A stretch of DNA of 32,156 bases. Origin: Muribaculaceae bacterium. GTDB taxonomy: Bacteria; Bacteroidota; Bacteroidia; Bacteroidales; Muribaculaceae. Shown piece after piece: positions 1-26,297 of the stretch (position 1 is its first letter; each line of letters begins with the position of its first letter). The position numbers and the translations under genes are program-made. The stretch spans positions 1 to 32,156 of the forward strand of contig JAFVCX010000111.1 of the NCBI GenBank assembly GCA_017478855.1, read 5' to 3'. The notes beneath the pieces are model-generated. The model was given only the letters and a program-made list of their open reading frames with translations. It searched no databases and was not told the DNA's origin.

Positions 1-2
1 AA

Positions 3-302
3 CGGCTGGGGGCGCTGCCTCCCGCCGTGCTGGCGCAGTCCGCAGCCCCAACAGTCATTGTCCAAGAGAACAATGCCCTGCGTGAAATATTGAGCAAGCC
101 GAATGCAGAGACAAGCTCGCTTGGCTATGCTGAGGCGCAGCCAATATTCAACTTGGTTGAAACCATCCAACGGCTCAACGAACGCCTCAACGAGCCATTT
201 GTCACCGTCAACACCGTCACCGGCGACATGGGCATCAAGCAAGCGCAAGACGACTACCAACGACTGATGAACAACAAAAGTCCAAAATCCAAACGCAAGT
301 AG
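3..302 (+). CDS. C-terminal end of a probable prophage tail tape measure protein (partial)
   Basis: The frame is open from the window edge, so this is the 3' end of a longer gene; the GTG at 27 is not a convincing start. The visible ~100 residues are hydrophilic and end in a lysine-rich tail (SPKSKRK). I associate the motif VTVNTVTGDMGIKQAQDDYQ with the C-termini of tape measure proteins of Bacteroidales prophages; this is from memory, not a search. Tape measure proteins set tail length and are injected with the DNA. A rearranged second copy of the last 30 codons lies at 24555-24735. The next genes (DUF3784 protein, truncated phage gene at 698) fit a prophage remnant ending near tRNA-Pro. Confidence 0.55.
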   Translation, partial: RLGALPPAVLAQSAAPTVIVQENNALREILSKPNAETSSLGYAEAQPIFNLVETIQRLNERLNEPFVTVNTVTGDMGIKQAQDDYQRLMNNKSPKSKRK

Positions 303-309
303 CAGAAAA

Positions 310-636
310 ATGCCTACCTTTGTGCTCGTTATGATAATTGTTCTCATATTAAATATTATCTTGGTGGCATCAGCTATAGCCATCATGCTCGGTAAAGGTG
401 ATTTCCTTATTGCAGGTTATAACACTGCCAGCGAAAAAGAAAAGCAAAAGGTAAATATCAAAAGGTTACGCTATGTTATGGCTGTAATTCTTCTCTTATC
501 TGCCGTACTCAGCAGTATTCCATTTTTATCCGGGCAGGAAGATAATGTTAGGGTCCATCTTTCCGTGACACTCGGAATTGTAGTCGTTGCAATAAGTGGA
601 GTAATCGCCGCAAATACTTGGTGCATGAAAAAATAG
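310..636 (+). CDS. DUF3784-type small membrane protein, prophage cargo gene
   Basis: A 108-residue protein with three hydrophobic segments: residues about 3-28, 55-75 and 85-103. The stretch GKGDFLIAGYNTASEKEK after the first helix is the hallmark I know from the DUF3784 family, whose function is unknown. It starts 7 bases after the tape measure stop. The start is ambiguous: a Bacteroidota -7 box TACCTTTG at 315-322 lies inside the first codons of the ATG at 310. A transcript from that box can only be translated from the in-frame ATG at 331, giving a 101-residue protein on an almost leaderless mRNA. AT-rich codon use compared with the flanking phage gene suggests separately acquired cargo. 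A large hairpin element follows at 641-692. Confidence 0.7.
   Translation: MPTFVLVMIIVLILNIILVASAIAIMLGKGDFLIAGYNTASEKEKQKVNIKRLRYVMAVILLLSAVLSSIPFLSGQEDNVRVHLSVTLGIVVVAISGVIAANTWCMKK
315..322 (+). promoter_or_regulatory. -7 box of the cargo promoter (DUF3784 gene)
   Basis: The sequence TACCTTTG matches the Bacteroidota -7 consensus TAnnTTTG. No clear TTG is seen at the -33 position. The equivalent position of the second cargo slot has the same octamer at 24758-24765, upstream of the NERD gene, which supports a real cargo promoter. Confidence 0.45.
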
Positions 637-640
637 CAAC

Positions 641-692
641 GTCTTTTAAGAGCCAAAGCGGTTGGTTTACCTTTGCGGTAAATCAACCGCTT
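641..692 (+). promoter_or_regulatory. Conserved 52-nt hairpin element at the 3' border of the cargo slot, copy 1
   Basis: Begins with GTCTTTTAAGAGCC and then forms a hairpin: 656-671 pairs with 677-692 (about 16 bp, one G-T), with the 5-nt loop TTTGC. The element recurs at 25599-25650 after the other cargo gene. The copies differ mostly in ways that keep the stem paired, including two full compensatory changes (658/690 G-C to T-A; 671/677 C-G to T-A). The -7-like box TACCTTTG (668-675) sits at the hairpin apex, so this could be a promoter, a terminator for the cargo gene, or both. Confidence 0.6.
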
Positions 693-697
693 AACTT

Positions 698-820
698 ATG
701 GCAATATCACTTATCATCAACGGTCTCGAAGCGAGCCTAAAGAAAGGCTCGTCAATCGAGTATGTGTCCGAGAATAGGGTATTCACGGACGCGGACGATT
801 ACTCTATGGAGATAGTATAG
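698..820 (+). pseudogene. Truncated phage structural gene (N-terminal 40 codons)
   Basis: ATG at 698 opens a 40-codon frame reading MAISLIINGLEASLKKGSSI and then EYVSENRVF, ending at TAG 818-820. I recall this N-terminus from a large Bacteroidales prophage protein found just downstream of the tape measure gene (probably tail-associated), where the frame continues for hundreds of residues. Here it stops after 40 codons and the following 80 bases show no recognisable continuation. So it looks like a deletion end point of the prophage. The family assignment is from memory and moderate. Confidence 0.5.
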
Positions 821-902
821 TCGTTGGCGGTTTTGGAACGAGCGCAAAACGACTACCACATGGCAAGGACCATCTGAATGTGCCTTGATAGCCGATGCAT
901 GA

Positions 903-947
903 AAAGAGAGTCCGCAGAAAATTCATGATTTTCTGCGGACTCTCTTT
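903..947 (-). terminator. Rho-independent terminator of tRNA-Pro
   Basis: A long perfect inverted repeat (905-922 with 928-945, 18 bp, 5-nt loop) lies 4 bases downstream of the tRNA-Pro 3' end on the minus strand. The arms end in A and T runs. It also marks where prophage-remnant DNA stops. Confidence 0.8.
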
Positions 948-950
948 CAG

Positions 951-1025
951 TCGGGATGACTAGATTCGAACTAGCGACCCCACGCCCCCCAGACGCGTAC
1001 TCTAACCGGACTGAGCTACATCCCG
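951..1025 (-). tRNA. tRNA-Pro (anticodon GGG)
   Basis: The reverse complement folds as a cloverleaf: acceptor CGGGATG with CATCCCG, D arm GCTC..GAGT, anticodon loop CTGGGGG giving anticodon GGG, T arm CTAG-TTCGAAT-CTAG, discriminator A; CCA is not encoded. It reads CCC and, by wobble, CCU. It has its own promoter (1062-1092) and terminator (903-947). A prophage remnant abuts its 3' side, consistent with tRNA-associated integration, but no duplicated tRNA end is visible in the window. Confidence 0.95.
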
Positions 1026-1061
1026 AATGATGCTTTCTGAATCAATTCCCGAAAAGCGGTG

Positions 1062-1092
1062 CAAAGTTACACCCATTTTTTGAATCCGGCAA
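1062..1092 (-). promoter_or_regulatory. Promoter of tRNA-Pro
   Basis: On the minus strand the -7 box is TAACTTTG (1062-1069) and a TTG (1090-1092) lies 20 bases upstream, the usual Bacteroidota spacing. Transcription should begin about 30 bases before the tRNA. Confidence 0.7.
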
Positions 1093-1125
1093 GCATTTTC
1101 GAAAAAAAATAAGAAAAACGTTTGG

Positions 1126-2157
1126 CAGAGTCAACTGGCAAGTGCAAAATTATGAAAAATGCTTGAAGAACTCTTTCTTGGGTGTTGAGAAATTGAGTTT
1201 TTCTCTTGGTCTGATGTTGAGTTTCTTCTGAACCATGCTCACAAAAGCATCAGTTATCTTATTGAAATCAGTGTTTTTGGGTATGTATTGTCTGATGAGT
1301 TTGTTAGTGTTTTCAATGGCCCCTTTCTGCCATGAGCAGTAGCTGTCTGCGAAATAGACTTTTGCGCCAAGTGCCTTTGTAATGTCTTGATGCGAGGCGA
1401 ACTCTGGTCCGTTATCGGTTGTTATTGTCAGTATTGACTTCTTGTATGGGAAAAGCAGTCCGTTGACTATCTGCTCCACGTATTTTGCCTTTTTCCCATG
1501 TGGCAGCTTCGCCATCAATGTCATGTTAGTGCTTCTCTCCACAAGGGTTAGTATTGCATGTTGTGCCATGTCCACAATAAGACCCATCTCCGAGTCACCG
1601 AAGCGCTTGCCGTTTGCCTGCGGTGGTCGTTGGTGGATGCTTGTCCAGTTGGCAATGAGCTTCGGCTTACGTTTTGGTCTGCATCGATGCTTCATCTTGT
1701 GCCTTGTGTTGCTGGCTAACTCTCCTGACCCGTCGCTCTTATCATGCGGAGATAGTCTCATGGGAGATCCTGATGCCTTCTCGGGCAAGGTATCCGGCAA
1801 TCAGCCTTGGCGACCACTGCTCGTCAATCATCAGCTGGCGCACCCTCCACATCAGCAACGGATCTTTAGCGCTGTTGGATGTGCTTCGCTTGCGCCGTTG
1901 CTCTGCCTTGGATTGAGCACTCCATGGATGGCAGTTCCCCCGCTCAGTGCGGTTGCGTTTGAGCTCTCTGGAAACAGTCGATTCTCTTTTGCCAATAATT
2001 TTGGCAATTACTTTTCTCGGCGTTTTTGTTTGGAGTAAGGCAAAGATTTGACACCTTTGCTCTGAGGTTAATTGTTTGTACATGACAACACAAAATTAGT
2101 TAATCTCGGGGAGACTTCGGGCTCCCTTTCTGTTTTTTGTGTTGCCAATTGATTCTG
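1126..2157 (-). mobile_element. Degenerate IS30-family insertion sequence
   Basis: A single IS30 transposase gene (1150-2083, minus) is flanked by imperfect terminal inverted repeats. The left end CAGAGTCAACTGGCAA (1126-1141) matches the inverted right end CAGAATCAATTGGCAA (2142-2157) with two differences. Total length about 1.03 kb is normal for the family. I could not identify a target-site duplication. The transposase is frameshifted and lacks a catalytic residue, so the element should not be able to move on its own. Confidence 0.75.
1150..2083 (-). pseudogene. IS30-family transposase, frameshifted and catalytically damaged
   Basis: The first frame (2083 down to 1742) has the IS30 N-terminus MYKQLTSEQRCQIFALLQ and a helix-turn-helix (RKVIAKIIGKRESTVSRELK). 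It runs to RISHETIS, then hits TGA. The second frame resumes immediately with HDKSDGSGELASNTRHKMKH and carries the DDE integrase core to the normal C-terminus STPKKEFFKHFS, so a 1-2 nt indel near 1755 breaks the gene. The second Asp (TTDNGPEF) and the Glu (KGAIENTNKLIRQY) remain. The first catalytic block, normally GDWE-x-D-T-I, reads GDSEMGLIV: the Trp is Ser and the Asp is Gly. The element is therefore old and inactive. Confidence 0.85.
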
Positions 2158-2176
2158 AGCCGCTATTGAAAGTCAG

Positions 2177-2205
2177 AATAACTTTCGGCAAAGCCGAAAG
2201 TTATT
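2177..2205. repeat. Strong inverted repeat with 3-nt loop
   Basis: AATAACTTTCGGC (2177-2189) and its exact complement (2193-2205) are separated by AAA. The pairing can be extended imperfectly outward through GAAAGTC and GACTTCC. It lies just outside the IS30 end. There is no T-run on the plus side, so terminator function is uncertain; it could be an IS- or repeat-derived palindrome. Confidence 0.6.
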
Positions 2206-2439
2206 TCCGACTTCCAACAGCACATCTTCAATAACTTTAATGATTTTAAAGTCATAAACGAATGAGTCTTTGCACTTCGTTTGTGAATTTAGCCGGTGAG
2301 CACAGTTTCGAGAGAGATAAAGCGCAATAGCGGTCAATGAGGCTACCACTATAGGCAAGCGCAAGTGAAAGCCGACGACAGAATGAGAAGATTGCAGAAC
2401 TATCGTGCATTAACGATAGGACTCAGATCTTTTATTCGC

Positions 2440-2471
2440 AAAAAAATACCCGATTCGCCATGAACCGGGTA
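2440..2471 (-). terminator. Terminator of the efflux operon
   Basis: On the minus strand TACCCG (2471-2466) pairs with CGGGTA (2452-2447) and is followed by a run of seven T, about 105 bases after the MFS gene stop. This is a normal Rho-independent terminator for the three-gene operon. Confidence 0.65.
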
Positions 2472-2575
2472 AGGAGAGTTTTGCCCATTATATTATTTTA
2501 GATGAAAGAGCCGTGGGTTTCGGCTGTGCAGTTTACTTTTTTGATTAACCGAAAGCCGCAGGCAGCCTCACCACC

Positions 2576-4105
2576 CTACCGACGCAGGTGGTGACTCACG
2601 TAGCGATACACCCGCCTCACATCCACCATACGTAACATGGTGGCACGCACGGGCTGCACATCGTAGAGCATCATCAGCAAGAGCACCAGCATGCCCACCA
2701 CACACAGTACTCCCCACATCTGCTTGATGCCCACCATGAGCACTCCGCTAAAGTCGGGGTGAATGCCACGGGCCAGCGTGTCGGCAATCTGCCGACGCAG
2801 CCCATAGCCATAGAGGCCCGAGCATATCGACTCGGCCACTCCATTGCGAATGAAGCCCGACACTGTGAGAGCCATGAAAAACGTAGGGAAGGCGATGAGG
2901 TCCTTTAAATACAAGGTCATGGTCGAGAAAAAGATGGCATAGCCAAACGTGCGCAAAAAGGTGGGCAACGCCAGTCGGGCAAAGTTGAGTTGCGGCGACA
3001 CATAGCCATACATCATCACTTGATACATCAACAGGCAAGCAAAGCCCACGGTGAGCAAGCGCGTATATTTCTGATGCAAGGGCCTGTGCCACAACACGGT
3101 GAACAGCGAGCCTAACGTGTAGCCCAAGAATTCATACACATAAAGGTTACGCGTGGTGGCTTGCCCCCAGTGCAGCACACTGCCCGTGAGTGCTCCTTGC
3201 AGGGCATGGGGCGTGGCATTCATCATCTCAGCCACGAAAAACATAGCCAAAATAGGTATCAGTCGAGCATGAGGCCACACCTTGGGGTCGATGTAAGGAT
3301 GGCGCACACGGCGCATGCGCATGACGGTCACCCCCAGTGTCACCGGCAGGGCAATGAGCACTTGGCACCACCTCACCGATTGAAACCAATTATAATATTC
3401 GCCATAAGTGAATAACCATATCACTTCGAGCATCACGGCCGACCATAACACGCAACCCAACCAATCGAGCGAGATGAGGGGGAGCGGCTTGGCAAAACGC
3501 CAATCATGCGTGAGCACATACACCATCAGCACCACGGTAAGCATTACCGCAGTCATCAGCCAGTGCATGGCCTGCCATGACCCTAATGTAACCGTGAGCC
3601 ACTGCGCCGCCCAGCTGCTGGCCGGCACGGCACCCAATATCACGATGTAGATGGTGGGCAGAAACACACCAAAATCTTGTTTGGGCGAAATCCATAGGCG
3701 AATGTTGGAAAAACATTCAAAGGTGCCGCATAACTTGAAAAATCCAGCCACATATGAAATCAGGCACAAGGCCGGCACCCAAGTCACATACAGGCTCAAC
3801 ACGTTGCACACGGCTATCACCACGGCCGCATTAATGAGCAATTTCCGATTAGTGAAGCGCAACTTAAAGCGGAAGAGGAACGGAAATGGCATATTCACGC
3901 CCACCACGCCAAACATGGCTATCATTTGAATGTCTTCGCGCATGAGTGAAGTGGCCCCCACCATGTGGCTCAAGTTGCCGAAATAGATGCCACCCGACAA
4001 CTGAAACACAAAAGCAAACACCAAGTAAATCCACGGTCTGATGCCCTCGGGCACAAAACCGTTGAACATGGACATGGCAAATTTTTGGTTATTCCAATCG
4101 GCCAT
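2576..4105 (-). CDS. MFS multidrug efflux permease, 14-TM EmrB-like
   Basis: A 509-residue inner-membrane protein with about 14 hydrophobic segments, the DHA2/EmrB layout, but with divergent loops typical of the Bacteroidota versions. It should use the proton gradient to drive drugs or other amphiphiles into a periplasmic adaptor. It is the last gene of a three-gene operon: the ATG (4105) lies one base after the stop of the HlyD-type adaptor gene, and the TolC-type gene comes first. The C-terminus is basic (YVSHHLRR). There is no Walker motif, excluding an ABC pump. The substrate cannot be read from sequence. The usual linked regulator (AraC or TetR) is absent here. Confidence 0.85.
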   Translation of the reverse strand: MADWNNQKFAMSMFNGFVPEGIRPWIYLVFAFVFQLSGGIYFGNLSHMVGATSLMREDIQMIAMFGVVGVNMPFPFLFRFKLRFTNRKLLINAAVVIAVCNVLSLYVTWVPALCLISYVAGFFKLCGTFECFSNIRLWISPKQDFGVFLPTIYIVILGAVPASSWAAQWLTVTLGSWQAMHWLMTAVMLTVVLMVYVLTHDWRFAKPLPLISLDWLGCVLWSAVMLEVIWLFTYGEYYNWFQSVRWCQVLIALPVTLGVTVMRMRRVRHPYIDPKVWPHARLIPILAMFFVAEMMNATPHALQGALTGSVLHWGQATTRNLYVYEFLGYTLGSLFTVLWHRPLHQKYTRLLTVGFACLLMYQVMMYGYVSPQLNFARLALPTFLRTFGYAIFFSTMTLYLKDLIAFPTFFMALTVSGFIRNGVAESICSGLYGYGLRRQIADTLARGIHPDFSGVLMVGIKQMWGVLCVVGMLVLLLMMLYDVQPVRATMLRMVDVRRVYRYVSHHLRR

Positions 4106-4106
4106 G

Positions 4107-5144
4107 TCAGTATTTCACTTCGGTTTCCACATTTAGCCCTGCCAACAGGCGGGCCACATCGGTCGGGTTATTGTCGGCGGTGAGTGCGATGCGCACCGGC
4201 ACACGTTGCTCCACTTTCACGAAATTGCCGGTGGCATTGTCTATGGGGATAGCCGAAAAGGCACTACCCGTGCCGGCCGAAATGCTTTGCACGCGCCCTG
4301 CAAACTCAATGCCGGGCAATGCATCCACGGTAACCGTCACCTCGTTGCCCACGGCAATGTGGGGCATTTGTGACTCGCGATAGTTGGCCACCACCCATAT
4401 TTGGCCATCGTCGACCAACTGCGCAAGCAGTTGCCCGGGCTGCACTAATTGTCCCTCGTGGATTTCTTTTTTACCCATCACGCCATCGCATGGGGCCATA
4501 ATCACGGTATACGACAGATTGAGACGAGCCAAATTCACCTGCGCCTGTGCCACGCTCACGCCTGCTGTGGTCTGCGACAAGCGTTGAGCCTGCTCGTTGT
4601 GAACCAATGCGGTGCTTTGTTTTTGATTAGCGGCTTGCTGATAGCGAGCGCGGGCCGCTTCGTAGCGGGCGCGCACGTTGTCGTACTGCTGCCGCGTCAC
4701 GGCATCTTTCTCAAGCAGCGTAGCATAACGCTCATAGTCGGCCTTCGCATTCTCCATGTTGACACGCGCTTCCTCAATTCCGGCTGCGGCCACCTGCACA
4801 TTCGATGCGGTGGTGGTCATGCCGGCACTCACGGCCCCCGAGCCCGACCGCGAGCCACGCAAGCCGGCCTCGGCCTGTGCCAAGTGCAGGCGATATTCGG
4901 CATCGTCGATTATGACTAAGGTGTCGCCTTTTTTCACATGCTGATATTCGTCGAACCGAATTTCGGTGATAAAGCCTTGCACGCGGGTGTTGATGGGCGT
5001 GATGTGACGATGCACTTGGGCATCATCAGTCCATTCCACTCGTCCCCAATGCACAAAGCGGCTGCACACATATCCTATTGCCAAAAGCAACAGAACAACA
5101 ATCACAACGTTATAGATTCTCTTAATGGTCTTTTTATGGCTCAT
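4107..5144 (-). CDS. HlyD/EmrA-family periplasmic adaptor (membrane fusion protein)
   Basis: 345 residues. An N-terminal signal anchor (residues about 10-28, YNVVIVVLLLLAIGYVCSRF) is followed by a first lipoyl half-motif (VQGFITEIRFDEYQHVKKGDTL). A long alpha-helical hairpin, about 80-210, is rich in Ala and Gln. Then come the second lipoyl half (APCDGVMGKKEIHEGQLVQPGQLL) and a beta-barrel domain. These adaptors bridge the inner-membrane permease and the outer-membrane TolC channel. The start ATG overlaps the stop of the TolC-type gene by 4 bases (ATGA) and the permease follows with a 1-base gap, so the genes are almost certainly translationally coupled. Confidence 0.92.
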   Translation of the reverse strand: MSHKKTIKRIYNVVIVVLLLLAIGYVCSRFVHWGRVEWTDDAQVHRHITPINTRVQGFITEIRFDEYQHVKKGDTLVIIDDAEYRLHLAQAEAGLRGSRSGSGAVSAGMTTTASNVQVAAAGIEEARVNMENAKADYERYATLLEKDAVTRQQYDNVRARYEAARARYQQAANQKQSTALVHNEQAQRLSQTTAGVSVAQAQVNLARLNLSYTVIMAPCDGVMGKKEIHEGQLVQPGQLLAQLVDDGQIWVVANYRESQMPHIAVGNEVTVTVDALPGIEFAGRVQSISAGTGSAFSAIPIDNATGNFVKVEQRVPVRIALTADNNPTDVARLLAGLNVETEVKY

Positions 5145-6445
5145 AGTGTTCCTGTTAGATATTTCATTTGATAATAAGCATAGATAATGCTGATGCGAGC
5201 ATCCACGAGTTGCAGTTCGGCATCAAGTTTCATCGATGAGGCATCAAGCATATCGGTTATTAAGGCTAATTGCGAGCGGTAACGGTCGCTCACCACCTGA
5301 TAGTTTTGCTGGGCCAATTCCACACTCTTGCGGCGCGTGTCGAGCTCGGCCATGGCTTGCTGCAGCAACGTGTAGCCACGTTGCACGCGATTATTCACCT
5401 GCTCGGCTGCCACTGCGGCTGCCTCGTGGCTCTGCCGCACAGCCGTGAGGGCCTGCCTAACGCGCTTTTTCCCCGTGTAAAGGGCGCTGATCGGGTAGTG
5501 CACCCCCACCCCAACATACCAATAATTGTAGTTAATGTCTTTAGGTGGTAAGTCGTAATTGAATGGTCCGTTCATGTAGTCGGCAGCCACGAGTGCCACC
5601 TTAGGCAACTGTTCGCTGCGAGCAAGGCGCAATAGCTGCTCGGCACAAGCGTGCTGCAAGCGACTGCGTTCAAGTTCGGGTGCCGCGACTATAGCTTGTT
5701 GCTGCCAATGCTGTTCGGTGGAGGCAACAATGGCCAGTGACAGCATCGTGGTGTCGGGACTCACGCTCACGCCGGTCAGTCCCAGCGTGTTACACAACTC
5801 ATGATTGATGATTGCTCGCCGGTCTTGCACCTTGCGCAGCCCTAACTTTAGCGTTTCGAGTTGCAATTCGTAGCGTGTAACATCGTTTCGAAGCACTAAG
5901 CCTTGCTCATATTTCTCTTTGATGTCGGCAATAAGCCGCTCGGTGAGGGAAATGTTTTGAGCATACACTTGCTCGCTATTACGCAACTTATACAGGTCGA
6001 GATATTGCCCCAAAGCCATGAATCGCTGTTGCTCGCGCGTGAGTGATTCGCCCACACGAGCAAGGCTATGCTCCAACTCGGCCAATCGTATGCCGGCATC
6101 GATTGCCCCTCCGGCATACACCACTTGGCGCGCCTCGAGGGCAAATGAGTTGCCCAAATGCGGCACGCTGTAGCCGTGTACATCAGTGAAATTGCGTTCA
6201 CTCGTGAGCACGTTTCCGTTAAAACTGACCGACACATCGGTGCTGACTTCGGGCAGACGTTTGTTTTTGGCCACGTCGATGCCTTGTTGGGCAAATTCTA
6301 CGCTTGTCTTCTGTAACTGAAGAGTCTTGCTGTTGCTTTCCACTAAATCAAACAGTTCACCCACTGTTATGGTTCGCTCCTCTTGGGCCTTCACCGTCAT
6401 CACGGCGGCTACGACCATCAGAAGCGCAACACTTCTCCATTTCAT
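5141..6445 (-). CDS. TolC-family outer membrane efflux channel
   Basis: 434 residues with a cleavable signal peptide (MKWRSVALLMVVAAVMTVKAQ). Two repeated outer-membrane-efflux domains follow, with long amphipathic helices (RLIADIKEKYEQGLVLRNDVTRYE in the first; RYRSQLALITDMLDASSMKLDAE in the second), the typical TolC pattern. The length is normal. It is the first gene of the efflux operon; promoter and a structured leader lie upstream (6473-6534). It forms the outer-membrane exit duct for the HlyD/MFS pair. Placing TolC first is common in Bacteroidota drug-efflux operons. Confidence 0.93.
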   Translation of the reverse strand: MKWRSVALLMVVAAVMTVKAQEERTITVGELFDLVESNSKTLQLQKTSVEFAQQGIDVAKNKRLPEVSTDVSVSFNGNVLTSERNFTDVHGYSVPHLGNSFALEARQVVYAGGAIDAGIRLAELEHSLARVGESLTREQQRFMALGQYLDLYKLRNSEQVYAQNISLTERLIADIKEKYEQGLVLRNDVTRYELQLETLKLGLRKVQDRRAIINHELCNTLGLTGVSVSPDTTMLSLAIVASTEQHWQQQAIVAAPELERSRLQHACAEQLLRLARSEQLPKVALVAADYMNGPFNYDLPPKDINYNYWYVGVGVHYPISALYTGKKRVRQALTAVRQSHEAAAVAAEQVNNRVQRGYTLLQQAMAELDTRRKSVELAQQNYQVVSDRYRSQLALITDMLDASSMKLDAELQLVDARISIIYAYYQMKYLTGTL

Positions 6446-6472
6446 AGGTTATAAGACTGAATAACGTATTGA

Positions 6473-6520
6473 AGGTGGGGCCTCCGTTCAACAACTGAAG
6501 TTCAAGGAGAGCACCCACCT
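6473..6520 (-). promoter_or_regulatory. Structured 5' leader hairpin of the efflux operon
   Basis: On the minus strand AGGTGGG (6520-6514) pairs with CCCACCT (6479-6473), and an inner CTCC/GGAG pair closes the loop. The hairpin starts right at the predicted transcription start and ends 28 bases before the TolC start codon. It could stabilise the mRNA end or act as a cis-regulatory leader; no known riboswitch is recognised. Confidence 0.4.
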
Positions 6521-6526
6521 AAAGCA

Positions 6527-20413: not shown

Positions 20414-20754
20414 TTGACTTTGAAACCCTTGTTGCGCAACATTTCCATGACGCGGTCGCGATGGTCGCCCTGAATGAGAATCTCTCCACCGCGTGCCGAG
20501 CCGCCCACGCCCAGCTGTCGCTTCAGCTCTCGTGCGAGGTCGTCGATGGCCCGGTCGTCGGCCACAAGATCAACAATCAGCGTAGCCGTTTTGCCTTTTC
20601 TTCCTTTTTTATCGAGCAGCACATGCACCACTTGGTTGCCTTGCTGTGCACGGGCATCGGCAGGAGCTTCAGCCTCTTGTTCGAGCCGATCCTCTTCGGG
20701 TTGCACAGGAGCTACGCCAAAAGCTGCGCTTAACTTATCTTTCCAGTCCTCCAT
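20410..20754 (-). CDS. SUI1/eIF1-family translation factor (YciH-like)
   Basis: 114 residues. The first ~45 are acidic and variable (PEEDRLEQEAEAPADARAQQ). The SUI1 fold follows, with KGRKGKTATLIVDLVADD and the signature LGVGGSARGGEILIQGDHRDRVMEMLRNKGFKVK. YciH-type proteins bind the 30S subunit and influence initiation-codon choice. The stop overlaps the start of the AddA-type gene by 4 bases, indicating coupled translation of two functionally unrelated genes. Promoter at 20773-20803. Confidence 0.92.
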   Translation of the reverse strand: MEDWKDKLSAAFGVAPVQPEEDRLEQEAEAPADARAQQGNQVVHVLLDKKGRKGKTATLIVDLVADDRAIDDLARELKRQLGVGGSARGGEILIQGDHRDRVMEMLRNKGFKVK

Positions 20755-20772
20755 AATCAGTTAAAATAATGC

Positions 20773-20803
20773 CAAAGTTACTCCTAAAAAGGCAAAGAGC
20801 CAA
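20773..20803 (-). promoter_or_regulatory. Promoter of the SUI1-addA operon
   Basis: On the minus strand TAACTTTG (20773-20780) with TTG (20801-20803) 20 bases upstream; the leader is short (about 12 bases). Confidence 0.7.
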
Positions 20804-20821
20804 AAAAAATGCCAAAAACCA

Positions 20822-20852
20822 TTGTGCGTTTCAAAAAATAGCACTACTTTTG
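20822..20852 (+). promoter_or_regulatory. Promoter of the ferredoxin gene
   Basis: TTG at 20822-20824 and TACTTTTG at 20845-20852, 20 bases apart; leader about 45 bases. Divergent from the SUI1 promoter, with about 20 bases between the two -33 elements. Confidence 0.75.
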
Positions 20853-20903
20853 CCGTCAAGTTTACTATTCAATTAATAACACTTTTCATTTTTAATTATC
20901 ATT

Positions 20904-21074
20904 ATGGCATACGTAATTACCGACTCTTGTCTGGCTTGTGGCACTTGCCAGAGTGTTTGCCCCACTGGTGCTATCAGCGAGGGTGACATCTACAAGATTG
21001 ACCCCGATGTGTGCATCGATTGCGGCACTTGCGCCGATGCATGCCCTGCCGGAGCTATCGAGCCGGGTGAGTAA
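20904..21074 (+). CDS. 2[4Fe-4S] bacterial-type ferredoxin
   Basis: 56 residues. Two complete cluster motifs are visible: SCLACGTCQSVCPTGA and VCIDCGTCADACPAGA, each CxxCxxCxxxCP, the clostridial-type low-potential ferredoxin pattern. It carries electrons in the cytoplasm, for example with pyruvate:ferredoxin oxidoreductase or Rnf. It has its own promoter (20822-20852) and a strong terminator (21097-21132), so it is monocistronic. The start MAYVITDSC is the standard N-terminus of this Bacteroidota ferredoxin. Confidence 0.97.
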   Translation: MAYVITDSCLACGTCQSVCPTGAISEGDIYKIDPDVCIDCGTCADACPAGAIEPGE

Positions 21075-21096
21075 CACACAGTTCACAACCCAAATG

Positions 21097-21132
21097 GAGT
21101 TGCGCACCGCGATGGGGCGCAACTCTTTTTTT
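21097..21132 (+). terminator. Terminator of the ferredoxin gene
   Basis: GAGTTGCGC (21097-21105) pairs exactly with GCGCAACTC (21117-21125), followed by TTTTTTT. Confidence 0.9.
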
Positions 21133-21134
21133 GA

Positions 21135-21166
21135 TTTGCATATGTAGAAATTCCTCACTATCTTTG
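21135..21166 (+). promoter_or_regulatory. Promoter of recX-comF
   Basis: TTTG at 21135-21138 and TATCTTTG at 21159-21166, 20 bases apart. The -7 box ends only 5 bases before the ATG at 21172, so the transcript is leaderless or translation begins at the in-frame ATG at 21184. Confidence 0.7.
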
Positions 21167-21171
21167 CAGGG

Positions 21172-21690
21172 ATGAAACGACAGATGACAGCAGAAAAAGC
21201 ATACACACGCGCAGCCACACTGTGCAGCCGCAGTGAGCAAGCCGAGAGCGACATCCGTGAGAAATTGGCCGGATGGGGTATTGATGAGGCCGACGTTGAG
21301 CAGATTGTGCAACGTCTGCGCGAGGGCAATTACCTGAATGAGCAACGTTATGCCCATGCTTTTGTGCACGACAAGTTCGCTTTTAACGGCTGGGGCAAAA
21401 TCAAAATGGCTTTTATGCTCAAACAAAAACAAGTGTCACCTGCCGTAATCGAAGAGGCACTGGCTGCCATCAACCACGAGGAATATCGCGAGAAACTCAT
21501 GTCGCTGCTTTATGCCAAGATGCAAGCACAAGCCGGACGCGATGCCTTGCTCGTGCGTGCCTCGTTGCTGCGCCTTGCCGCATCTCGCGGCTATGAGCCA
21601 AGCGTGTTTTATGGATGTGTGGATCGCACCATGGCTAAATTTGACACGCTGGTGGCCGGCGACGGCGAGCCCAATCCAGACAATGAATAA
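21172..21690 (+). CDS. recX: RecX-family regulator of RecA
   Basis: 172 residues from ATG 21172, or 168 from ATG 21184. Three-helix repeats typical of RecX are visible: AYTRAATLCSRSEQAESDIREKLAGWGI, then VEQIVQRLREGNYLNEQRYAHAFVHDKFAFNGWGKIKMAFMLKQKQV, with the hallmark sequences 'RSEQAESDI' and 'LNEQRYAxAFVxDK'. RecX binds RecA filaments and modulates recombination. The last codons overlap the comF start (ATG at 21683 within CAATGAATAA), so the two are translationally coupled. The SUI1-AddA operon is divergent, so recombination functions lie on both sides of the ferredoxin gene. Confidence 0.9.
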   Translation: MKRQMTAEKAYTRAATLCSRSEQAESDIREKLAGWGIDEADVEQIVQRLREGNYLNEQRYAHAFVHDKFAFNGWGKIKMAFMLKQKQVSPAVIEEALAAINHEEYREKLMSLLYAKMQAQAGRDALLVRASLLRLAASRGYEPSVFYGCVDRTMAKFDTLVAGDGEPNPDNE

Positions 21691-22381
21691 GTGGCTGCAT
21701 GCGCTGGCCGACGTGCTGATGCCACGCACTTGTGCTGTGTGTGGGCAGGCATTGGGACTTGATGAACCCTACTTATGCCCGGCATGCGAACTTGCCCTTC
21801 CCCGCACTCACTATGAGAATGAATCTTTTAACGCCATGGAGCAACTGGCGGCCGGGCGCACACCCATAGAGCGTGCCGCCGGCTATTTCTTTTATGAGAA
21901 AGCATCGCCCTATGCCGCCATTCTGCACGACATCAAGTATCGCAACATGCCGCTCATGGGACAATGGCTGTGCCGGCAAGCGGCACGCCACATGCAGCAA
22001 AGCAACTTTTTTGAAGGAATCGACGCGATAGCACCCGTGCCATTGCACAGAAGCAAACTTGCCGACAGGGGCTACAACCAGTCGCAATATCTGGCGCAAG
22101 GATTGGCCGACGTAACCGGCATTCAGCTCGTGCAGGCACTCACGGCAACGCGACCCCACGCCACACAAACCCGCAAGTCGGCACAAGAACGATGGGAAAA
22201 CATTCAAGACATGTATGCGCCACGCAGCAGCGCTGCGCGGCAGCTGGCCGGCAAGCACATTCTCATCGTGGACGACGTGATTACGACCGGAGCCACGCTC
22301 ATAGCGTGCTCACAGGCATTGCATCAGTTGCCCGGCGTGCGAATTTCTTGGTTCACGCTGGCTGTGGCGCGGCTTGATTGA
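21683..22381 (+). CDS. comF: ComF-family phosphoribosyltransferase-like protein
   Basis: 232 residues from ATG 21683, which overlaps the recX stop by 8 bases; the frame is open much further upstream, but that part is antisense/overlap with recX. An N-terminal zinc ribbon (CAVCGQ ... CPACE, residues about 16-35) precedes a phosphoribosyltransferase domain. This has APVPLHRSKLADRGYNQSQYLAQGLA and the PRPP loop ILIVDDVITTGATL. ComF proteins are needed for DNA uptake in naturally competent bacteria; in others their role is unclear. The pfkA gene is convergent with a gap of only 8 bases and no terminator between. Confidence 0.93.
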   Translation: MNKWLHALADVLMPRTCAVCGQALGLDEPYLCPACELALPRTHYENESFNAMEQLAAGRTPIERAAGYFFYEKASPYAAILHDIKYRNMPLMGQWLCRQAARHMQQSNFFEGIDAIAPVPLHRSKLADRGYNQSQYLAQGLADVTGIQLVQALTATRPHATQTRKSAQERWENIQDMYAPRSSAARQLAGKHILIVDDVITTGATLIACSQALHQLPGVRISWFTLAVARLD

Positions 22382-22389
22382 CCGCTCCA

Positions 22390-23370
22390 TCAAATAGACA
22401 ATCTGCGCAAGATCGTCACCAGCTCAGGGTCGATGGGCTTGTCTTTGCGAATCGCTTTGGAGAAAGGCACGTACACGATTTCGTCGTTGGCATCACCAAT
22501 CATCACATTGCGCTGCCCCTCAAGCAGAGCATCGATCGCAGCCGCGCCCATGCGCGAAGCCAGAATGCGGTCTTGTGCCGTGGGCGAGCCGCCGCGTTGC
22601 AAATGGCCCAAAATGGTGACACGCACGTCGTATTGAGGATACTCTTTGCGCACACGCTCGGCCAGCCCCATAGCACCACCTGTGATGGGGCTTTCTGCCA
22701 CCAACACGATGCTGGAGTTCTTGCTCTTTCGGAAACCATTTTGAATCAGTTCGGCCAACTGGTCGACTTCGGTGGAGATTTCGGGTATGATTGCAGCTTC
22801 GGCTCCGCTGGCGATGGCACCATTAAGTGCCAAGAATCCGGCGTTTCTGCCCATCACCTCGATGAAAAACAGCCGTTCGTGGCTCGTGGCTGTGTCGCGA
22901 ATGCGGTCCACACACCACATGATAGTGTTGAGTGCCGTGTCATAACCTATGGTGTGGTCGGTGCCGTATAGGTCATTATCGATGGTGCCCGGAAGCCCCA
23001 CGATGGGAATGTCGAATTCACCGGCGAAATCGCGCGCGCCACTCAGCGAGCCATCGCCGCCTATCACCACCAGCGCATCAATCTCATGACTGCGCATCAC
23101 ATCGAAAGCCTGCTGACGGCCCTCGGGGGTGGTGAACTCTTTGCAGCGAGCTGTTTTCAAAATGGTGCCTCCCTGCTGCACAATGTTGCTCACATTTTGT
23201 GTTTTGAAATCCACAATCTCGTTGGTGATAAGCCCCTTGTAGCCACGATAAATGCCTTTCACCTTGAAACCACTGAAGATTGCCGAGCGCGTCACCGCGC
23301 GTATGGCCGCATTCATTCCCGGGGCATCGCCGCCCGAGGTTAGCAAGCCTATCGTTTTAATCTTTGCCAT
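22390..23370 (-). CDS. pfkA: ATP-dependent 6-phosphofructokinase
   Basis: 326 residues, the usual size for the bacterial A-type enzyme that phosphorylates fructose 6-phosphate in glycolysis. Landmarks: [17 protein letters not shown] (ATP site), [12 protein letters not shown], the catalytic [21 protein letters not shown], and [23 protein letters not shown] with Gly after GGD favours ATP over pyrophosphate as donor. Promoter at 23399-23428. The tcdA gene lies upstream on the same strand, 81 bases away, with this promoter between, so pfkA can be transcribed alone. Confidence 0.97.
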
Positions 23371-23398
23371 AACTGAATTCTATTCTTTTTCGAGAAGG

Positions 23399-23428
23399 CA
23401 AAGATACAACTTATCCCCTGCCCCGCAA
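23399..23428 (-). promoter_or_regulatory. Promoter of pfkA
   Basis: On the minus strand TATCTTTG (23399-23406) with TTG (23426-23428) 19 bases upstream. Confidence 0.75.
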
Positions 23429-23451
23429 TAGCAACAAGCGCTTCATTTGCG

Positions 23452-24267
23452 TTATTTAACGCCCACGGTGTCCGAAGGCTCCTCCACCTCGACAGGTTGG
23501 CGCATGGTGCCGGCCGCCTCCACAAGGTCTTTCACCACCTCACCACCTAAAATAAGGCCCGCCGTGGCCGGAACCCACGCATTGCTGGCCGGGATGTTGC
23601 GACGCTCGGTGCATTTGCGCATATTCTTGTCAGGGCAAATGCAGTGAAAACGGCAGCTGATGCTGGGGTCGTCAAGAGGCTCCAACGGGATCTCCGGGCT
23701 ATACACACACTTGAAGTGATTAATTCCCTCTCGCCGCAACCGTTTGCGAATCACTTTGGCCAAAGGATCCATCATGGTCTTGGTTATATCAACCACACGA
23801 AAAGCCGTCGCATCCAGCTTGTTAGCTGCCCCCATCGAGCAAATGATGGGCACGTTCAGTCGTTTGCATCGGCGAATCAGCTCCATCTTCGCGCTCACGG
23901 TATCTATGCAATCCACCACATAGTCATAGACCGACAAGTCCACCTCATCGGCATTGCTCACCAAGTAGAACATGCGTCGCTTTTCCACCTTGCAGTGCGG
24001 ATTGATGGCATGGATTCTTTCTTCGGCCACATCCACCTTGTAGCGGCCAATATTATTGGTCAAGGCTATAATCTGCCTGTTGACATTGGTCAGGCAAATG
24101 CGGTCATCGTCAAAAATATCAATGGCACCCACCCCACTTCGGGCCAGCACCTCCACGGCATAACCGCCCACGCCGCCCACGCCAAACACCGCCACACGGC
24201 TGGCCTTCAACGTTTGCATAGCCGCGCCACCCAGCAACAGCTGCGTCCTTGAGAACTGATTCTGCAT
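23452..24267 (-). CDS. tcdA: tRNA threonylcarbamoyladenosine dehydratase (TcdA/CsdL)
   Basis: 271 residues. E1/ThiF-like fold: VAVFGVGGVGGYAVEVLARSGVG (nucleotide loop, residues about 25-48), IDIFDDDRICLTNVNRQI, DYVVDCIDTVSAKMELI, and the C-terminal part with CRFHCICP and ASNAWVPATAGLILGGEVV, which are all standard in TcdA. The enzyme uses ATP to cyclise t6A37 to ct6A in tRNAs reading ANN codons. It has a -7 box just upstream (24290-24297) and is divergent from tRNA-Leu. The C-terminal end EVEEPSDTVGVK is variable. Confidence 0.95.
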   Translation of the reverse strand: MQNQFSRTQLLLGGAAMQTLKASRVAVFGVGGVGGYAVEVLARSGVGAIDIFDDDRICLTNVNRQIIALTNNIGRYKVDVAEERIHAINPHCKVEKRRMFYLVSNADEVDLSVYDYVVDCIDTVSAKMELIRRCKRLNVPIICSMGAANKLDATAFRVVDITKTMMDPLAKVIRKRLRREGINHFKCVYSPEIPLEPLDDPSISCRFHCICPDKNMRKCTERRNIPASNAWVPATAGLILGGEVVKDLVEAAGTMRQPVEVEEPSDTVGVK

Positions 24268-24289
24268 AACAATCTACATTATTCTTGTG

Positions 24290-24297
24290 CAAAAATA
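24290..24297 (-). promoter_or_regulatory. -7 box of tcdA
   Basis: TATTTTTG on the minus strand, 22 bases before the ATG. No convincing TTG at -33. Confidence 0.5.
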
Positions 24298-24318
24298 AGA
24301 TTTTTTTTGCAGTCTTAC

Positions 24319-24348
24319 TTGATTATTCAGAAAAAATAGCTACCTTTG
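24319..24348 (+). promoter_or_regulatory. Promoter of tRNA-Leu
   Basis: TTG at 24319-24321 and TACCTTTG at 24341-24348, 19 bases apart; the tRNA begins 11 bases after the box. Confidence 0.75.
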
Positions 24349-24359
24349 CACCGCTTTTA

Positions 24360-24443
24360 GCCCAGATGGCGGAATCGGTAGACGCGCTGGTCTCAAACAC
24401 CAGTGGGGTAAAACCCGTGCCGGTTCGACCCCGGCTCTGGGTA
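24360..24443 (+). tRNA. tRNA-Leu (anticodon CAA)
   Basis: Class II tRNA: acceptor GCCCAGA with TCTGGGT, anticodon stem CTGGT/ACCAG around loop CTCAAAC (anticodon CAA), a variable arm (GGGGTAAAACCC) and T arm CCGG-TTCGACC-CCGG; discriminator A. It reads UUG. A terminator follows directly; beyond it starts the mobile-element remnant zone, so this tRNA is a likely integration locus. Confidence 0.95.
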
Positions 24444-24444
24444 C

Positions 24445-24484
24445 AAATAACGGCTGTTAATCGCTTGATTTTCAGCCGTTATTT
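24445..24484 (+). terminator. Terminator of tRNA-Leu
   Basis: AAATAACGGCTG (24445-24456) pairs exactly with CAGCCGTTATTT (24473-24484). Confidence 0.75.
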
Positions 24485-24491
24485 ATTTGCT

Positions 24492-24513
24492 GGGTAGCCA
24501 AAGGGTAGCCAAA
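24492..24513 (+). repeat. Tandem 11-bp repeat, possible integrase arm sites
   Basis: GGGTAGCCAAA occurs twice head to tail. It lies just past the tRNA-Leu terminator. Short direct repeats of this sort flank attachment sites of tyrosine-recombinase elements; the function here is inferred, and no integrase gene remains. An inverted repeat (GCCC/GGGC with TTTTGAC/GTCAAAA, 24525-24550) follows. Confidence 0.45.
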
Positions 24514-24554
24514 AGCAACACAATAGCCCATTTTTGACGGTCAAAAGGGCGGTT

Positions 24555-24735
24555 TCACCAAACCCGGTGCAGTCAACACAGTGACCGGCGGCATGGGCTT
24601 CAATATTTGCGCAAGGCGAACTCAATGCTAAGCTTGCTTGAGCATTGATGAGGCGCAGCCAAATTTATCCAACCAAGCCAAGACGACTACCAGCGACTGA
24701 TGAATAACAAAAGTCCGAAATCCAAGCGAAAACAA
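24555..24735 (+). pseudogene. Scrambled second copy of the prophage tape measure 3' end
   Basis: GTCAACACAGTGACCGGCGG encodes VNTVTGG and aligns with VNTVTGD of the copy at 211-231. The final block encoding QDDYQRLMNNKSPKSKR (about 24681-24731) aligns with 247-300. Between the two lies about 75 bases of rearranged sequence that resembles an earlier part of the first copy (GAGGCGCAGCCAA, present near 131 and 24650), so the order of segments is changed and the frame is broken. This is the left border of the second cargo slot. Confidence 0.65.
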
Positions 24736-24757
24736 CCTTTCGTATCGAAATAATCGC

Positions 24758-24765
24758 TACCTTTG
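24758..24765 (+). promoter_or_regulatory. -7 box of the second cargo gene
   Basis: TACCTTTG, 26 bases before the ATG of the NERD gene and in the same relative position as the box at 315-322 of slot 1. Confidence 0.55.
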
Positions 24766-24791
24766 CAATACATTTAAGAACACGTATCTTA

Positions 24792-25586
24792 ATGTCTGCA
24801 TTTACATCTATAATAATCATAATACTTGTCCTTGGAATCGTAATTTTCCGCTTGTGGTATAATTCGCCAAAGCAGAAAGGAAAACGAGGCGAGAAAAAGG
24901 TGCATAATATTCTATCTCATTTGTCAGAAGAATATCATGTCTTAGATGATGTTGTATTAAAGACACAAAGAGGCACAACTCAAATTGACCACATTGTTAT
25001 ATCTAAATACGGTGTTTTTGCCATTGAAACAAAGAATTATCGCGGTGACATCTATGGTGACGACAATCGTGAACAATGGACGCAGATAATTGCAACAGAA
25101 GTGACTTATAGCAAAAAGTGGTATAAGACATATACTTATATCACGAAGAATCAGCTTTATAATCCGGTCAAACAATCCTTTGGGCACATTTATGTACTGA
25201 AAAAGATACTATCCGAATGGAAGCATATAAAGTATATTCCTATAGTCGTATTTACCGGTAATGCCAATCTGTCAAATGTAATGTCAAGTATAGATGTTGT
25301 TTTCGATAGCGATTTGATTACAACTATTCTTCGTTATCAAACCGAATGTTTATCTCATGAAGATGTTTATGCAGTAATCAATAGAATTTTAGAACAAAAC
25401 GTTAGAGAAATTGTTGATGATGGTGTGCATGCTCTAAATGTCAATACGGCAAAGAAACAAACTCAACAAAAGATTGAATCCGGAATTTGCCCAAGATGTG
25501 GAGGGACATTGATCCTGCGTAGTGGAAGATATAGTCGCTTCTATGGCTGTTCAAATTATCCGAGATGTAGATTTACGACGCACTAA
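24792..25586 (+). CDS. NERD-domain nuclease-like membrane protein with C-terminal zinc ribbon (prophage cargo)
   Basis: 264 residues. Residues about 4-23 form one transmembrane helix (TSIIIIILVLGIVIFRLWY), so the rest probably lies in the cytoplasm. The NERD domain (nuclease-related, PD-(D/E)XK-like) spans about 30-160: KGKRGEKKVHNIL, then TQIDHIVISKYGVFAIETKNYRG, where Asp in QIDH and Glu/Lys in IETK are the expected active-site residues. A topoisomerase-type zinc ribbon closes the protein: CPRCGGTLILRSGRYSRFYGCSNYPRCRF. Codon use is clearly more AT-rich than core genes. The gene fills the same prophage slot as the DUF3784 gene at 310. NERD/zinc-ribbon proteins appear in phages and defence islands; a defence role is inference. 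Confidence 0.82.
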   Translation: MSAFTSIIIIILVLGIVIFRLWYNSPKQKGKRGEKKVHNILSHLSEEYHVLDDVVLKTQRGTTQIDHIVISKYGVFAIETKNYRGDIYGDDNREQWTQIIATEVTYSKKWYKTYTYITKNQLYNPVKQSFGHIYVLKKILSEWKHIKYIPIVVFTGNANLSNVMSSIDVVFDSDLITTILRYQTECLSHEDVYAVINRILEQNVREIVDDGVHALNVNTAKKQTQQKIESGICPRCGGTLILRSGRYSRFYGCSNYPRCRFTTH

Positions 25587-25598
25587 TATAGACTGATC

Positions 25599-25650
25599 GT
25601 CTTTTAAGAGCCAAATCGGCTGGTTTACTTTTGCAGTAAACTCACCGATT
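25599..25650 (+). promoter_or_regulatory. Conserved 52-nt hairpin element at the 3' border of the cargo slot, copy 2
   Basis: Same length and start as the element at 641-692. 25614-25629 pairs with 25635-25650 around loop TTTGC, with two unpaired positions in mid-stem. Relative to copy 1 it has compensatory changes at 25616/25648 (T-A instead of G-C) and 25629/25635 (T-A instead of C-G). A T-run follows (25649-25653), so here it could act as a terminator for the NERD gene and, in reverse, downstream of the convergent sanA-like gene. Confidence 0.6.
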
Positions 25651-25653
25651 TTT

Positions 25654-26297
25654 CTATGTCAACAAGTCCAAAAACATCTTCACTCTCGCGAAATATTCAC
25701 GGATAGAAGTTAGGTAGGCTCGTCTTGACTTGGGCATCTCTGCATTACAGGCTTGCACGTTTTCTATATCCAGCCCAAGATGTTCCGCCTGATAGATTGC
25801 CCGCTCGTCATGAAACTCCTGAGAGATAATCGTGAAACTTTTCAGCCCAAACACCTTGTTGGCATTAACAATAGAGCAAATAGTCCTGTAGCCCTTACCA
25901 TCCATGATGATTGCACTCGCAGGAACGCCCTTTGTCAGTAGCGAATCCCTCATACATTCCGGTTCATTGACCCCATCAAGACTATTCTCATCGCCGCTAA
26001 TTAGGATTTTCTCTATCTTTCCTGCCTTATACAACTGCTCTGCCGCGTCAATACGGTAGGTAAAGAACTCGTTTGTAACCTTTGCTAAGCGAGCTTGTGG
26101 AGTCGTCCCCAGCAACAGCCCCACCTTATTAGGTTTCACATTTTCAAGCTCATTGAATACTTCCCCTTGGCGTTATTCACAACAATCTGGTTGCAAACCA
26201 ACATGGTCACTATACATAAGATTGCAATTAAACTAAATCCCCCTATCGCAACTTTCGCTAAAGAAGTTTTCATCTGTCTTTGGATCCGTGCAAACAT
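25654..26297 (-). pseudogene. SanA/YdcF (DUF218)-family envelope protein gene with a -1 frameshift
   Basis: Downstream frame (25654-26139): KPNKVGLLLGTTPQARLAKVTNEFFTYRIDAAEQLYKAGKIEKILISGDE and later FTIISQEFHDERAIYQAEHLG, the SanA-like DUF218 signature. The missing N-terminus is in another frame just upstream: ATG at 26297 or 26273, MKTSLAKVAIGGFSLIAILC (membrane anchor), to VVNNAKGK. The two join smoothly as NAKGK/VFNELENVKPNK if one base is restored near 26160. So a single-base deletion (or a sequencing error) splits an otherwise complete gene of about 215 codons. SanA proteins are inner-membrane-anchored periplasmic proteins linked to envelope barrier function and vancomycin exclusion. 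Confidence 0.8.

Follow-up and report, generated by a model that had tools for sequence, protein, structure and literature searches.

Morons, genes flanked by a promoter and a terminator, have been described in lambdoid and other temperate phages as additional genes, foreign in composition, that separate two neighboring genes of related phages (PMC4378225). We analyzed a 32,156-nucleotide stretch of DNA from a Muribaculaceae bacterium (hereafter, the window), which is the entire contig G000:C11 of a genome in 147 contigs and holds two copies of a slot for cargo genes, bounded by the 3′ end of a tape measure protein (TMP) gene and, in related phages, by the next tail gene (NG). Cargo in the slot is preceded by a putative left promoter region (LP) and followed by a right element (EL). 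With a probability of roughly 0.7, the slot is in our reading a moron locus that belongs to a family of temperate tailed phages in rumen Bacteroidales of Muribaculaceae type, and the window carries two eroded prophages reduced mainly to the cargo cassette. At the level of sequence comparison, the anatomy of the slot, its conservation, and the presence of different cargo in near-identical backbones are established.

With the morons described, the slot shares foreign composition, position between genes adjacent in relatives and, as a candidate on sequence grounds, a promoter of its own (PMC4378225). It is unlike known morons in that at least 79 open reading frame (ORF) families occupy one site, a promoter box recurs regardless of cargo, the slot ends in the hairpin late-type promoter of the next gene, and cassettes occur in tandem with phage gene ends as repeats. 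Integron gene cassettes are also tandem and promoter-fed, have a short repeat between them, and vary in order. The slot resembles integrons in all of these respects; its repeats, however, consist of phage gene ends and the promoter box, which is seen again ahead of further cargo. Regions of genomic plasticity in Mu-like Pseudomonas phages are likewise fixed sites, holding zero to six accessory ORFs, but as far as that source describes them they differ from the slot with its constant border promoters and tandem border repeats (PMC4378225). The Bfgi2 prophage of Bacteroides fragilis, like the slot phages, is of siphovirus type, lies in a tRNA gene, and carries a passenger, the protease bfp3; relative to Bfgi2 as described, a passenger between TMP and the next tail gene is the feature of the slot (PMC2873492).

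A counterpart of the hairpin promoter is known from phage T4. Long early transcripts of gene e form an inhibitory structure, the 5′ part of which is missing from late-started transcripts; at gene e and I-TevI, as predicted for EL, the region of the 5′ arm of an RNA hairpin houses the promoter, the hairpin hides the start codon in read-through RNA, and late-started RNA lacks this arm (PMC3014915). EL differs from the T4 case in belonging to a Bacteroidales phage, in being of TAnnTTTG type with GTCTTTT at −33, and in forming a moron border, and its control of translation is a prediction here. We found no description of the slot or the motif in the open-licence literature, as far as its texts were available. 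Morons and phage sites with variable genes are already known; what sets this locus apart from them is its pair of promoter boxes, a border hairpin of late-promoter type, and cassettes in tandem.

A variable slot between two tail genes

A preliminary description of the window had proposed two prophage remnants with unrelated cargo in the same slot. Both border pairs proved real: in a direct-repeat comparison within the window, the left borders (246–298 and 24679–24731) are 91% identical across 53 nt, and the right borders (640–704 and 25598–25662) are 80% identical across 65 nt. The left border codes for the C terminus of TMP, in agreement with the earlier tape measure assignment; the TMP of an intact relative, L034, matches the tape measure families of PHROG ("tail length tape measure," 1.5e-34) and Pfam (PhageMin_Tail, 2.1e-17).

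Slots were found by searching with the TMP C terminus and were defined by TMP together with NG, so that slots having lost either gene fall outside the counts. At the DNA level, the TMP C terminus matched in 22 of 61 related genomes, several of them with at least two copies. The survey drew on a scan of GTDB species genomes (80 of 108 relatives kept, or 79 loci) and on two scans of IMG/VR (8 and 19 loci, on partly overlapping contigs). It holds 95 distinct slots with both borders, of which 27 are empty, 65 hold cargo, and 3 hold other genes, and besides these 27 TMP ends without NG. Because the same borders recur in 95 distinct slots, a chance origin of the borders can be excluded. The border search that the preliminary description had suggested, run in its main lines from the TMP C terminus and NG, returned a wide range of cargo in the 65 filled slots.

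In the 27 empty slots, TMP overlaps NG or is separated from it by no more than 36 nt, so that cargo elsewhere stands between genes that are adjacent in related phages, as in morons. L034, an intact prophage of the window's own genome, is empty, with 11 nt from the TMP stop to the NG start. Since the empty state is also seen in phages of Paludibacteraceae metagenome-assembled genomes (MAGs; L127, L130, and L131) and of a Barnesiella MAG (L114), it is probably ancestral, and TMP–NG without cargo would be the starting point of the proposed history. In three IMG/VR phages (L145, L146, and L147), 5 to 7 kb of other genes separate TMP and NG, with internal late-type promoters and no EL; these loci were excluded from cargo counts.

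The earlier idea of a recurrent moron site in a prophage family is borne out by the number of different genes between the constant borders. Over 67 slots (the two in the window included), 108 cargo ORFs fall into 79 families, 21 of which have at least two members; a cargo ORF is a frame of at least 60 aa on the coding strand, and some of the 108 are probably spurious short frames. One ORF was found in 39 slots, two in 17, three in 9, and four in 2. The preliminary description had held that the same cargo in every homologous prophage would speak against such a site; cargo differed instead, and intact prophages such as L034 are empty. GC content is 0.377 in cargo, 0.538 in the TMP tail, and 0.503 in the NG head, and cargo lies below both flanks in 61 of 64 slots, a composition unlike that of its neighbors, as in morons.

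The phages themselves have few known relatives in the collections searched. Matches to TMP in a phage collection are distant (165 records, every one below 60% identity), the NG of L034 matched nothing in Pfam or PHROG, and the NG of L053 had no significant match in the PDB (best E, 0.19). Because NG has a single weak match among 50,697 phage records, the family seems to be uncultured. In the intact relatives L034 and L042, the order is TMP, NG, a convergent integrase, and a minus-strand tRNA; a minus-strand tRNA stands to the right of NG in further intact relatives, including L065 and L077. A stretch of 1 to 2 kb 5′ of TMP is without clear coding-strand genes in L034 (~200–1500), L053 (3900–6400), and L057 (5000–6400). 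A known large RNA in this gene-poor stretch was considered and rejected, as Rfam returned only tRNAs in the six sources scanned.

Putative promoters at the slot borders

EL was found in all 65 cargo slots (fuzzy match, at most 3 errors), where it stands beside TMP and NG by construction; the 27 empty slots leave no room for it. Its core is GTCTTTT-N20-TAnnTTTG. The usual −7 box of Bacteroidetes is TAnnTTTG. A plain host promoter was rejected as an identity for EL, since in place of TTTG its −33 element is GTCTTTT, with a spacing of 20. In the loci scanned, the motif occurs 129 times, 59 of them at NG starts, with no occurrence in the reversed control (spacings of 18–23 were allowed, 20 being nearly universal; exact duplicates were dropped for the motif and kept for the control). 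By eye, many of the other 70 copies precede TMP or MIDIQQL-type genes or belong to an EL next to which NG has decayed or escaped detection. A scan of 41 genomes gave motif hits in 24 of the 25 genomes of the genus (the window's own included) and reversed-control hits in none of the 25, whereas 16 genomes of other families yielded 14 motif hits and 18 reversed-control hits. Five of six virus contigs carry the motif four to eight times, almost always on one strand (4/4, 8/8, 4/4, 4/4, and 4/5). As a general promoter of Bacteroides phages the motif was rejected, having been found neither in B40-8 and B124-14 nor in one of the six virus records. Because it precedes TMP, a portal-like gene (weak PHROG match, 1.7e-4), and MIDIQQL genes, we call EL a putative phage late promoter, by its position before structural genes.

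The EL hairpin encloses the −7 box. Across 66 distinct copies, with the pairing register picked per sequence, 804 of 858 cells are paired, compared with a mean of 756 and a maximum of 770 in 500 shuffles. From promoter to start codon, 84 late promoters have a mean predicted folding energy of −15.05 kcal/mol, and RNA starting 5 nt past the −7 box has −1.5; folding therefore predicts the T4-type geometry, in which the promoter lies in the 5′ arm and its own RNA lacks that arm. The fold z score is −3.3 for late promoters (−3.8 for the 45 of EL type) against −0.84 for 69 host-like promoters, a set that may itself contain late promoters (those with GTCTTTTG), in which case the contrast is weaker. 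We propose that EL separates NG from cargo transcription: read-through RNA would fold and hide the NG start, and RNA begun at EL in the late phase would lack the 5′ arm and hence be translated. In Flavobacterium, where Shine–Dalgarno sequences are absent, structure around the start codon tunes initiation (PMC6847099), which fits this start-hiding model. In L204 (1096–2502), L209 (4969), and L211 (15247), late-type promoters accompany portal-like or MIDIQQL genes, and the right arm of the hairpin overlaps or nears the start codon.

The same hairpin could be that of a classic moron terminator, which would end cargo transcription and make the −7 box incidental. Morons are defined as promoter- and terminator-flanked (PMC4378225), and by eye a T-rich run follows the hairpin in many EL copies, e.g., CGCTTTTTTATG. 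Other copies are without it: many of those before MAISL-type NG genes end in CCGCTTAACTTATG, with no T-run. Whereas the hairpin arms vary, GTCTTTT, TAnnTTTG, and the 20 nt between them are largely conserved, and the same motif precedes other structural genes. We consider this explanation unlikely on the whole, although termination at the hairpin could also act in addition to start-codon hiding. Nor do we favor a repressor operator, in which the inverted repeat would be a DNA symmetry with no RNA hairpin. Such an operator would suit a palindrome that spans the −7 box with co-varying arms, and A–C mismatches (17 at position 12, inside the −7 box) occur too; but many departures are G–T (G–U) pairs (15 at position 8 and 8 at position 4), and the right arm extends into the start codon of the portal-like gene, leaving the operator improbable.

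At the left border, a TAnnTTTG box was seen in the first 60 nt past the TMP stop in 54 of 66 slots, compared with a mean of 4.2 and a maximum of 11 in shuffles; the late −33 motif was found in 0 of these 66. In the clade with a MILTINGQQ-type NG, a sequence like TGAGTGTTTAG...GCTACCTTTGC precedes many different cargos (by eye), so LP seems to belong to the slot, not to the cargo. LP would drive cargo expression in the dormant prophage.

A second hairpin late-type promoter (AGCGGTTACCGTACTTTTGC..GTACGATAACCGCT) was seen in L201–L204 and L206–L208. Its pattern, with at most 1 mismatch, hit 29 of 101 genus genomes, the window's own among them (G000:C82:43865–43882), against 2 reversed-control hits. 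In several places, this promoter precedes an MQQDK-type gene, with differing cargo-like genes upstream, and it probably marks a second moron slot of the same design (30 loci compared, several without a match).

Cargo exchange and cassette arrays

Pfam scans in three batches covered 82 ORFs, five of which come from the own-genome array contigs L033 and L035, outside the 65 slots, and matched CrcB, NERD, YhcG/DUF1016, Mrr_cat, GIY-YIG, Redoxin, M50, CdiI_3, Tli3, and HTH families, as well as histidine kinase and response regulator domains, TonB_C, GH3, Dockerin, and SUFU. Single-protein searches confirmed CrcB (L081), Dockerin (L078), GIY-YIG (L072), YhcG (L113), NERD (L109), HTH (L064), and DUF5714 (L080); 3 of the 10 cargo proteins examined singly had no match. 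The HTH protein comes with a small partner gene. A defense island was considered and rejected: with PADLOC, run on 78 cargo representatives, the 25 families listed of the 50 matching each had one member that matched.

One pair of otherwise nearly identical prophages differs cleanly in cargo. Between L078 and L081, TMP identity is 98.95% across 4202 bp; the alignment breaks off at the TMP stop and begins again, at 97.3%, at EL/NG; L078 carries Dockerin-type cargo, and L081 carries CrcB. We compared 129 slot pairs (30 slots), picked for similar flanks and no shared cargo, without gaps. Identity was 0.83–1.0 before the TMP stop, dropped to ~0.4 over the 30 nt that follow it and to 0.3 farther on, and returned to 0.95 at the NG ATG. 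Conversely, in 15 of 27 cargo-sharing pairs neither flank reaches 90% identity, as judged by this crude ungapped comparison. This drop of identity between similar flanks, together with shared cargo in dissimilar flanks, speaks for movement of cargo against the phage backbone. Shared cargo was found in intact and fossil slots (L068/L066 and L072/L104), and the NERD cargo of the window has a 63% homologue in the same slot type of another genome (L158, on a contig as long as that of L109). NERD queries matched in 13 of 101 genus genomes; five matches are strong (the window included), and one of the other four lies in a slot.

Slots are also joined into arrays. An NG start is followed by a TMP end within 400 nt in 12 places, and the two matches meet in 9 of these and do not in 3. 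Fourteen slots contain 19 internal matches to the TMP tail and/or LP. In ten of them (L083, L074, L077, L087, L109, L123, L037, L045, L088, and L079), 50 to 92 nt of TMP tail running into LP precede further cargo; L105 has an internal TMP-tail copy of 35 nt, and the remaining internal matches are short or chance-like. L045 and L088 share the same array, and L074 and L083 carry the same three cargos in a different order, joined at the TMP-tail/LP repeats. Cargo would be swapped when phages recombine within the constant borders, which are the TMP tail with LP on one side and EL with the NG head on the other. An illegitimate crossover of related phages would double the slot and yield tandem cassettes, which homologous recombination in the repeats would then shuffle.

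Mere decay would dispense with exchange: prophages in tandem at one tRNA would lose all but cargo and stubs by deletion, and the arrays would be fossils. Stub lengths vary and junctions differ, tRNA genes are present at 21 of 25 loci scanned, and there are EL copies without TMP, all of which suits decay. Against this, arrays adjoin a long TMP and a full NG (the L074 junction has on one side a TMP of at least 718 aa that the contig end truncates and on the other a full NG; the TMP of L077 is full), and although NG|TMP breakpoints vary, one is common to L039 and L074 and another to L037, L090, and L101, in different genomes. Different cargo in nearly identical prophages also argues against decay, which we regard as a doubtful account of the arrays. 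Microhomology common to all array junctions was rejected, overlaps being present in five of the nine meeting junctions and absent from four.

Integron-like site-specific recombination, with EL or LP as a folded tyrosine-recombinase site for cassettes, would fit the constant folded 3′ border element, the tandem cassettes, and their reordering, and a tyrosine integrase gene adjoins NG in L034 and L078. This integrase, compared in L034 and L078 by general family models, matches phage integrase families (phrog_1); in L034 and L042 it is located between NG and the tRNA, and the fossil arrays lie outside the comparison. Moreover, what separates the cassettes is mostly a repeat of TMP tail and LP, and NG|TMP breakpoints differ even if some recur. 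EL as an attC-like site was rejected because motif and hairpin also precede portal-like, MIDIQQL, and some TMP genes. Site-specific recombination seems very unlikely. A broader proposal, which we put forward tentatively and hold at somewhat less than even odds, is an integrase-free phage cassette system: promoter-tagged cargo would move between phages and eroded chromosomal arrays by TMP-tail/NG-head recombination, EL would spare the timing of the tail genes, and the same logic, seen again at the probable second slot and at further late genes, would govern expression throughout a family of uncultured Bacteroidales phages.

Several observations weigh against the moron-locus reading with its late promoter and exchange. 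The motif is missing from one of the six virus contigs and from the cultured phages B40-8 and B124-14, and the term "late" derives from position before structural genes. NG, portal-like, and MIDIQQL/MIDT genes have a strong hairpin, several TMP promoters have none, and where a T-run follows the hairpin it is possibly a terminator. LP has no clear host −33 box (TTG at 18–22 nt in 4 of 66 slots, TTTG in 1 of 66). The nine meeting junctions, with overlaps of 2 to 19 nt in five and none in four, point to no single mechanism, and MAG misassembly at the repeats may account for single loci. Homologues of DUF3784, the family of one window cargo, occur in 30 of the 101 genomes of the genus; among 29 loci besides the window's, inspected within 1.5 kb, 4 have any sign of a slot, and 1 is complete (a whole slot at L175; one sign each at L178, L185, and L190). 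Finally, the preliminary description had named right elements without a tape measure gene nearby as evidence against a slot, and these exist: 10 further EL copies in the genus, being those among the matches listed that lie on contigs new to the survey with upstream sequence (in some only 1–3 kb), include 2 with a TMP tail, 7 with an NG start, and 2 with neither. We read EL as a promoter that need not adjoin TMP and the TMP-less copies as more eroded ones, so that the slot reading is not overturned.

The window remnants and their meaning

The coordinates of both slots in the window are collected in Table 1.

Table 1. Slot features and adjoining tRNA genes in the window.
Feature	Position	Strand	Basis or remark
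TMP stub copy 1, C-terminal, open at contig start	1..302	+	matches to intact relative L034
LP of slot 1; −7 box TACCTTTG at 315–322; late −33 motif absent	303..322	+	
Cargo 1, DUF3784 membrane protein	331..636 (ORF as listed from 310)	+	Pfam DUF3784
EL of slot 1: GTCTTTT 641–647, N20, TACCTTTG 668–675; hairpin 658–670/678–690	641..690	+	late-type promoter
Truncated start of NG	698..815	+	118 nt, 89% to L034 6350–6467 (same genome)
Possible TMP-tail scrap, weak, 17/18 nt	841..858	+	score 32; 99th percentile of 1000 random places, 31
tRNA-Pro(ggg)	950..1025	−	adjoins slot 1
TMP stub copy 2, C-terminal; own stop lost, TAA at 24750–24752	24665..24752	+	
−7 box TACCTTTG of slot 2 cargo promoter	24758..24765	+	
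Cargo 2, NERD domain plus C-terminal zinc ribbon	24792..25586	+	Pfam NERD, Zn_ribbon_Top1
EL of slot 2: GTCTTTT 25599–25605, N20, TACTTTTG 25626–25633; hairpin 25616–25628/25636–25648	25599..25648	+	
tRNA-Ser(gct)	27083..27174	−	~1.4 kb downstream of slot 2

Much of the earlier anatomy holds. The two cargo genes had been named correctly, with Pfam E-values of 3.2e-14 for DUF3784, 4e-27 for NERD, and 1.6e-14 for Zn_ribbon_Top1. The second tape measure copy had been ended at about 24731, where the border match indeed stops; its frame instead runs on to the TAA. A box had been placed right after each left border and is there, but in slot 1 it falls inside the listed ORF, which makes ATG 331 the more likely start codon. 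The 52-nt element that had been given as the right border does bound both slots; it belongs, however, to NG, the start of which is recognizable in slot 1 only, and sequence comparison in the window found no NG match 3′ of EL in slot 2.

In TMP copy 1, positions 19–87 and 158–301 align to L034 6130–6198 and 6194–6337, leaving ~70–80 extra nt within about 88–170. By eye, short palindromic inserts resembling REP elements or miniature inverted-repeat transposable elements (AAGCTCGCTTGGC and GAGGCGCAGCCAA) stand inside TMP tails (window ~88–170 and 24600–24680; L036 10496–10616), and similar inserts stand near other copies. Several MAG contigs, including the window (at position 1), L008, L010, L011, and L030, start in or near these borders, which is expected if repeats break assemblies. 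The scrap at 841–858 is possibly, on a weak match, a decayed array junction.

Given the intact order of TMP, NG, convergent integrase, and minus-strand tRNA, both remnants resemble the right ends of eroded prophages. Window positions 27086–27223 are 87% identical to the tRNA-Ser region right of the intact prophage L042, and tRNA-Pro and tRNA-Ser are probably the attachment sides of remnants 1 and 2, respectively. About 125 nt past tRNA-Pro lies a transposase-like gene in two overlapping frames (1150–2083, minus strand), possibly IS30-like. Near slot 2, a CoiA_N-like gene, an HTH regulator, and a 287-aa gene (27428–30135, minus strand) are perhaps a mobile remnant.

In the proposed history, a low-GC cassette of LP, one to four unrelated cargo genes, and EL would have entered between TMP and NG, and as the phage decayed, useful cargo would be retained by the host. 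The slot gives one address, between two short constant sequences, at which the cargo of a large and apparently uncultured gut phage family can be listed, in intact and fossil copies alike. In a phylum whose promoters are unusual, EL provides its phages with a probable motif for late promoters, and the promoter pair a testable idea of how constitutive passenger genes may sit inside a late operon with the tail genes not misexpressed. With NERD, YhcG-type, and GIY-YIG nuclease domains, Mrr_cat, and the immunity families CdiI_3 and Tli3 among its contents, the slot is a place to seek benefits to the lysogen and phage defense.

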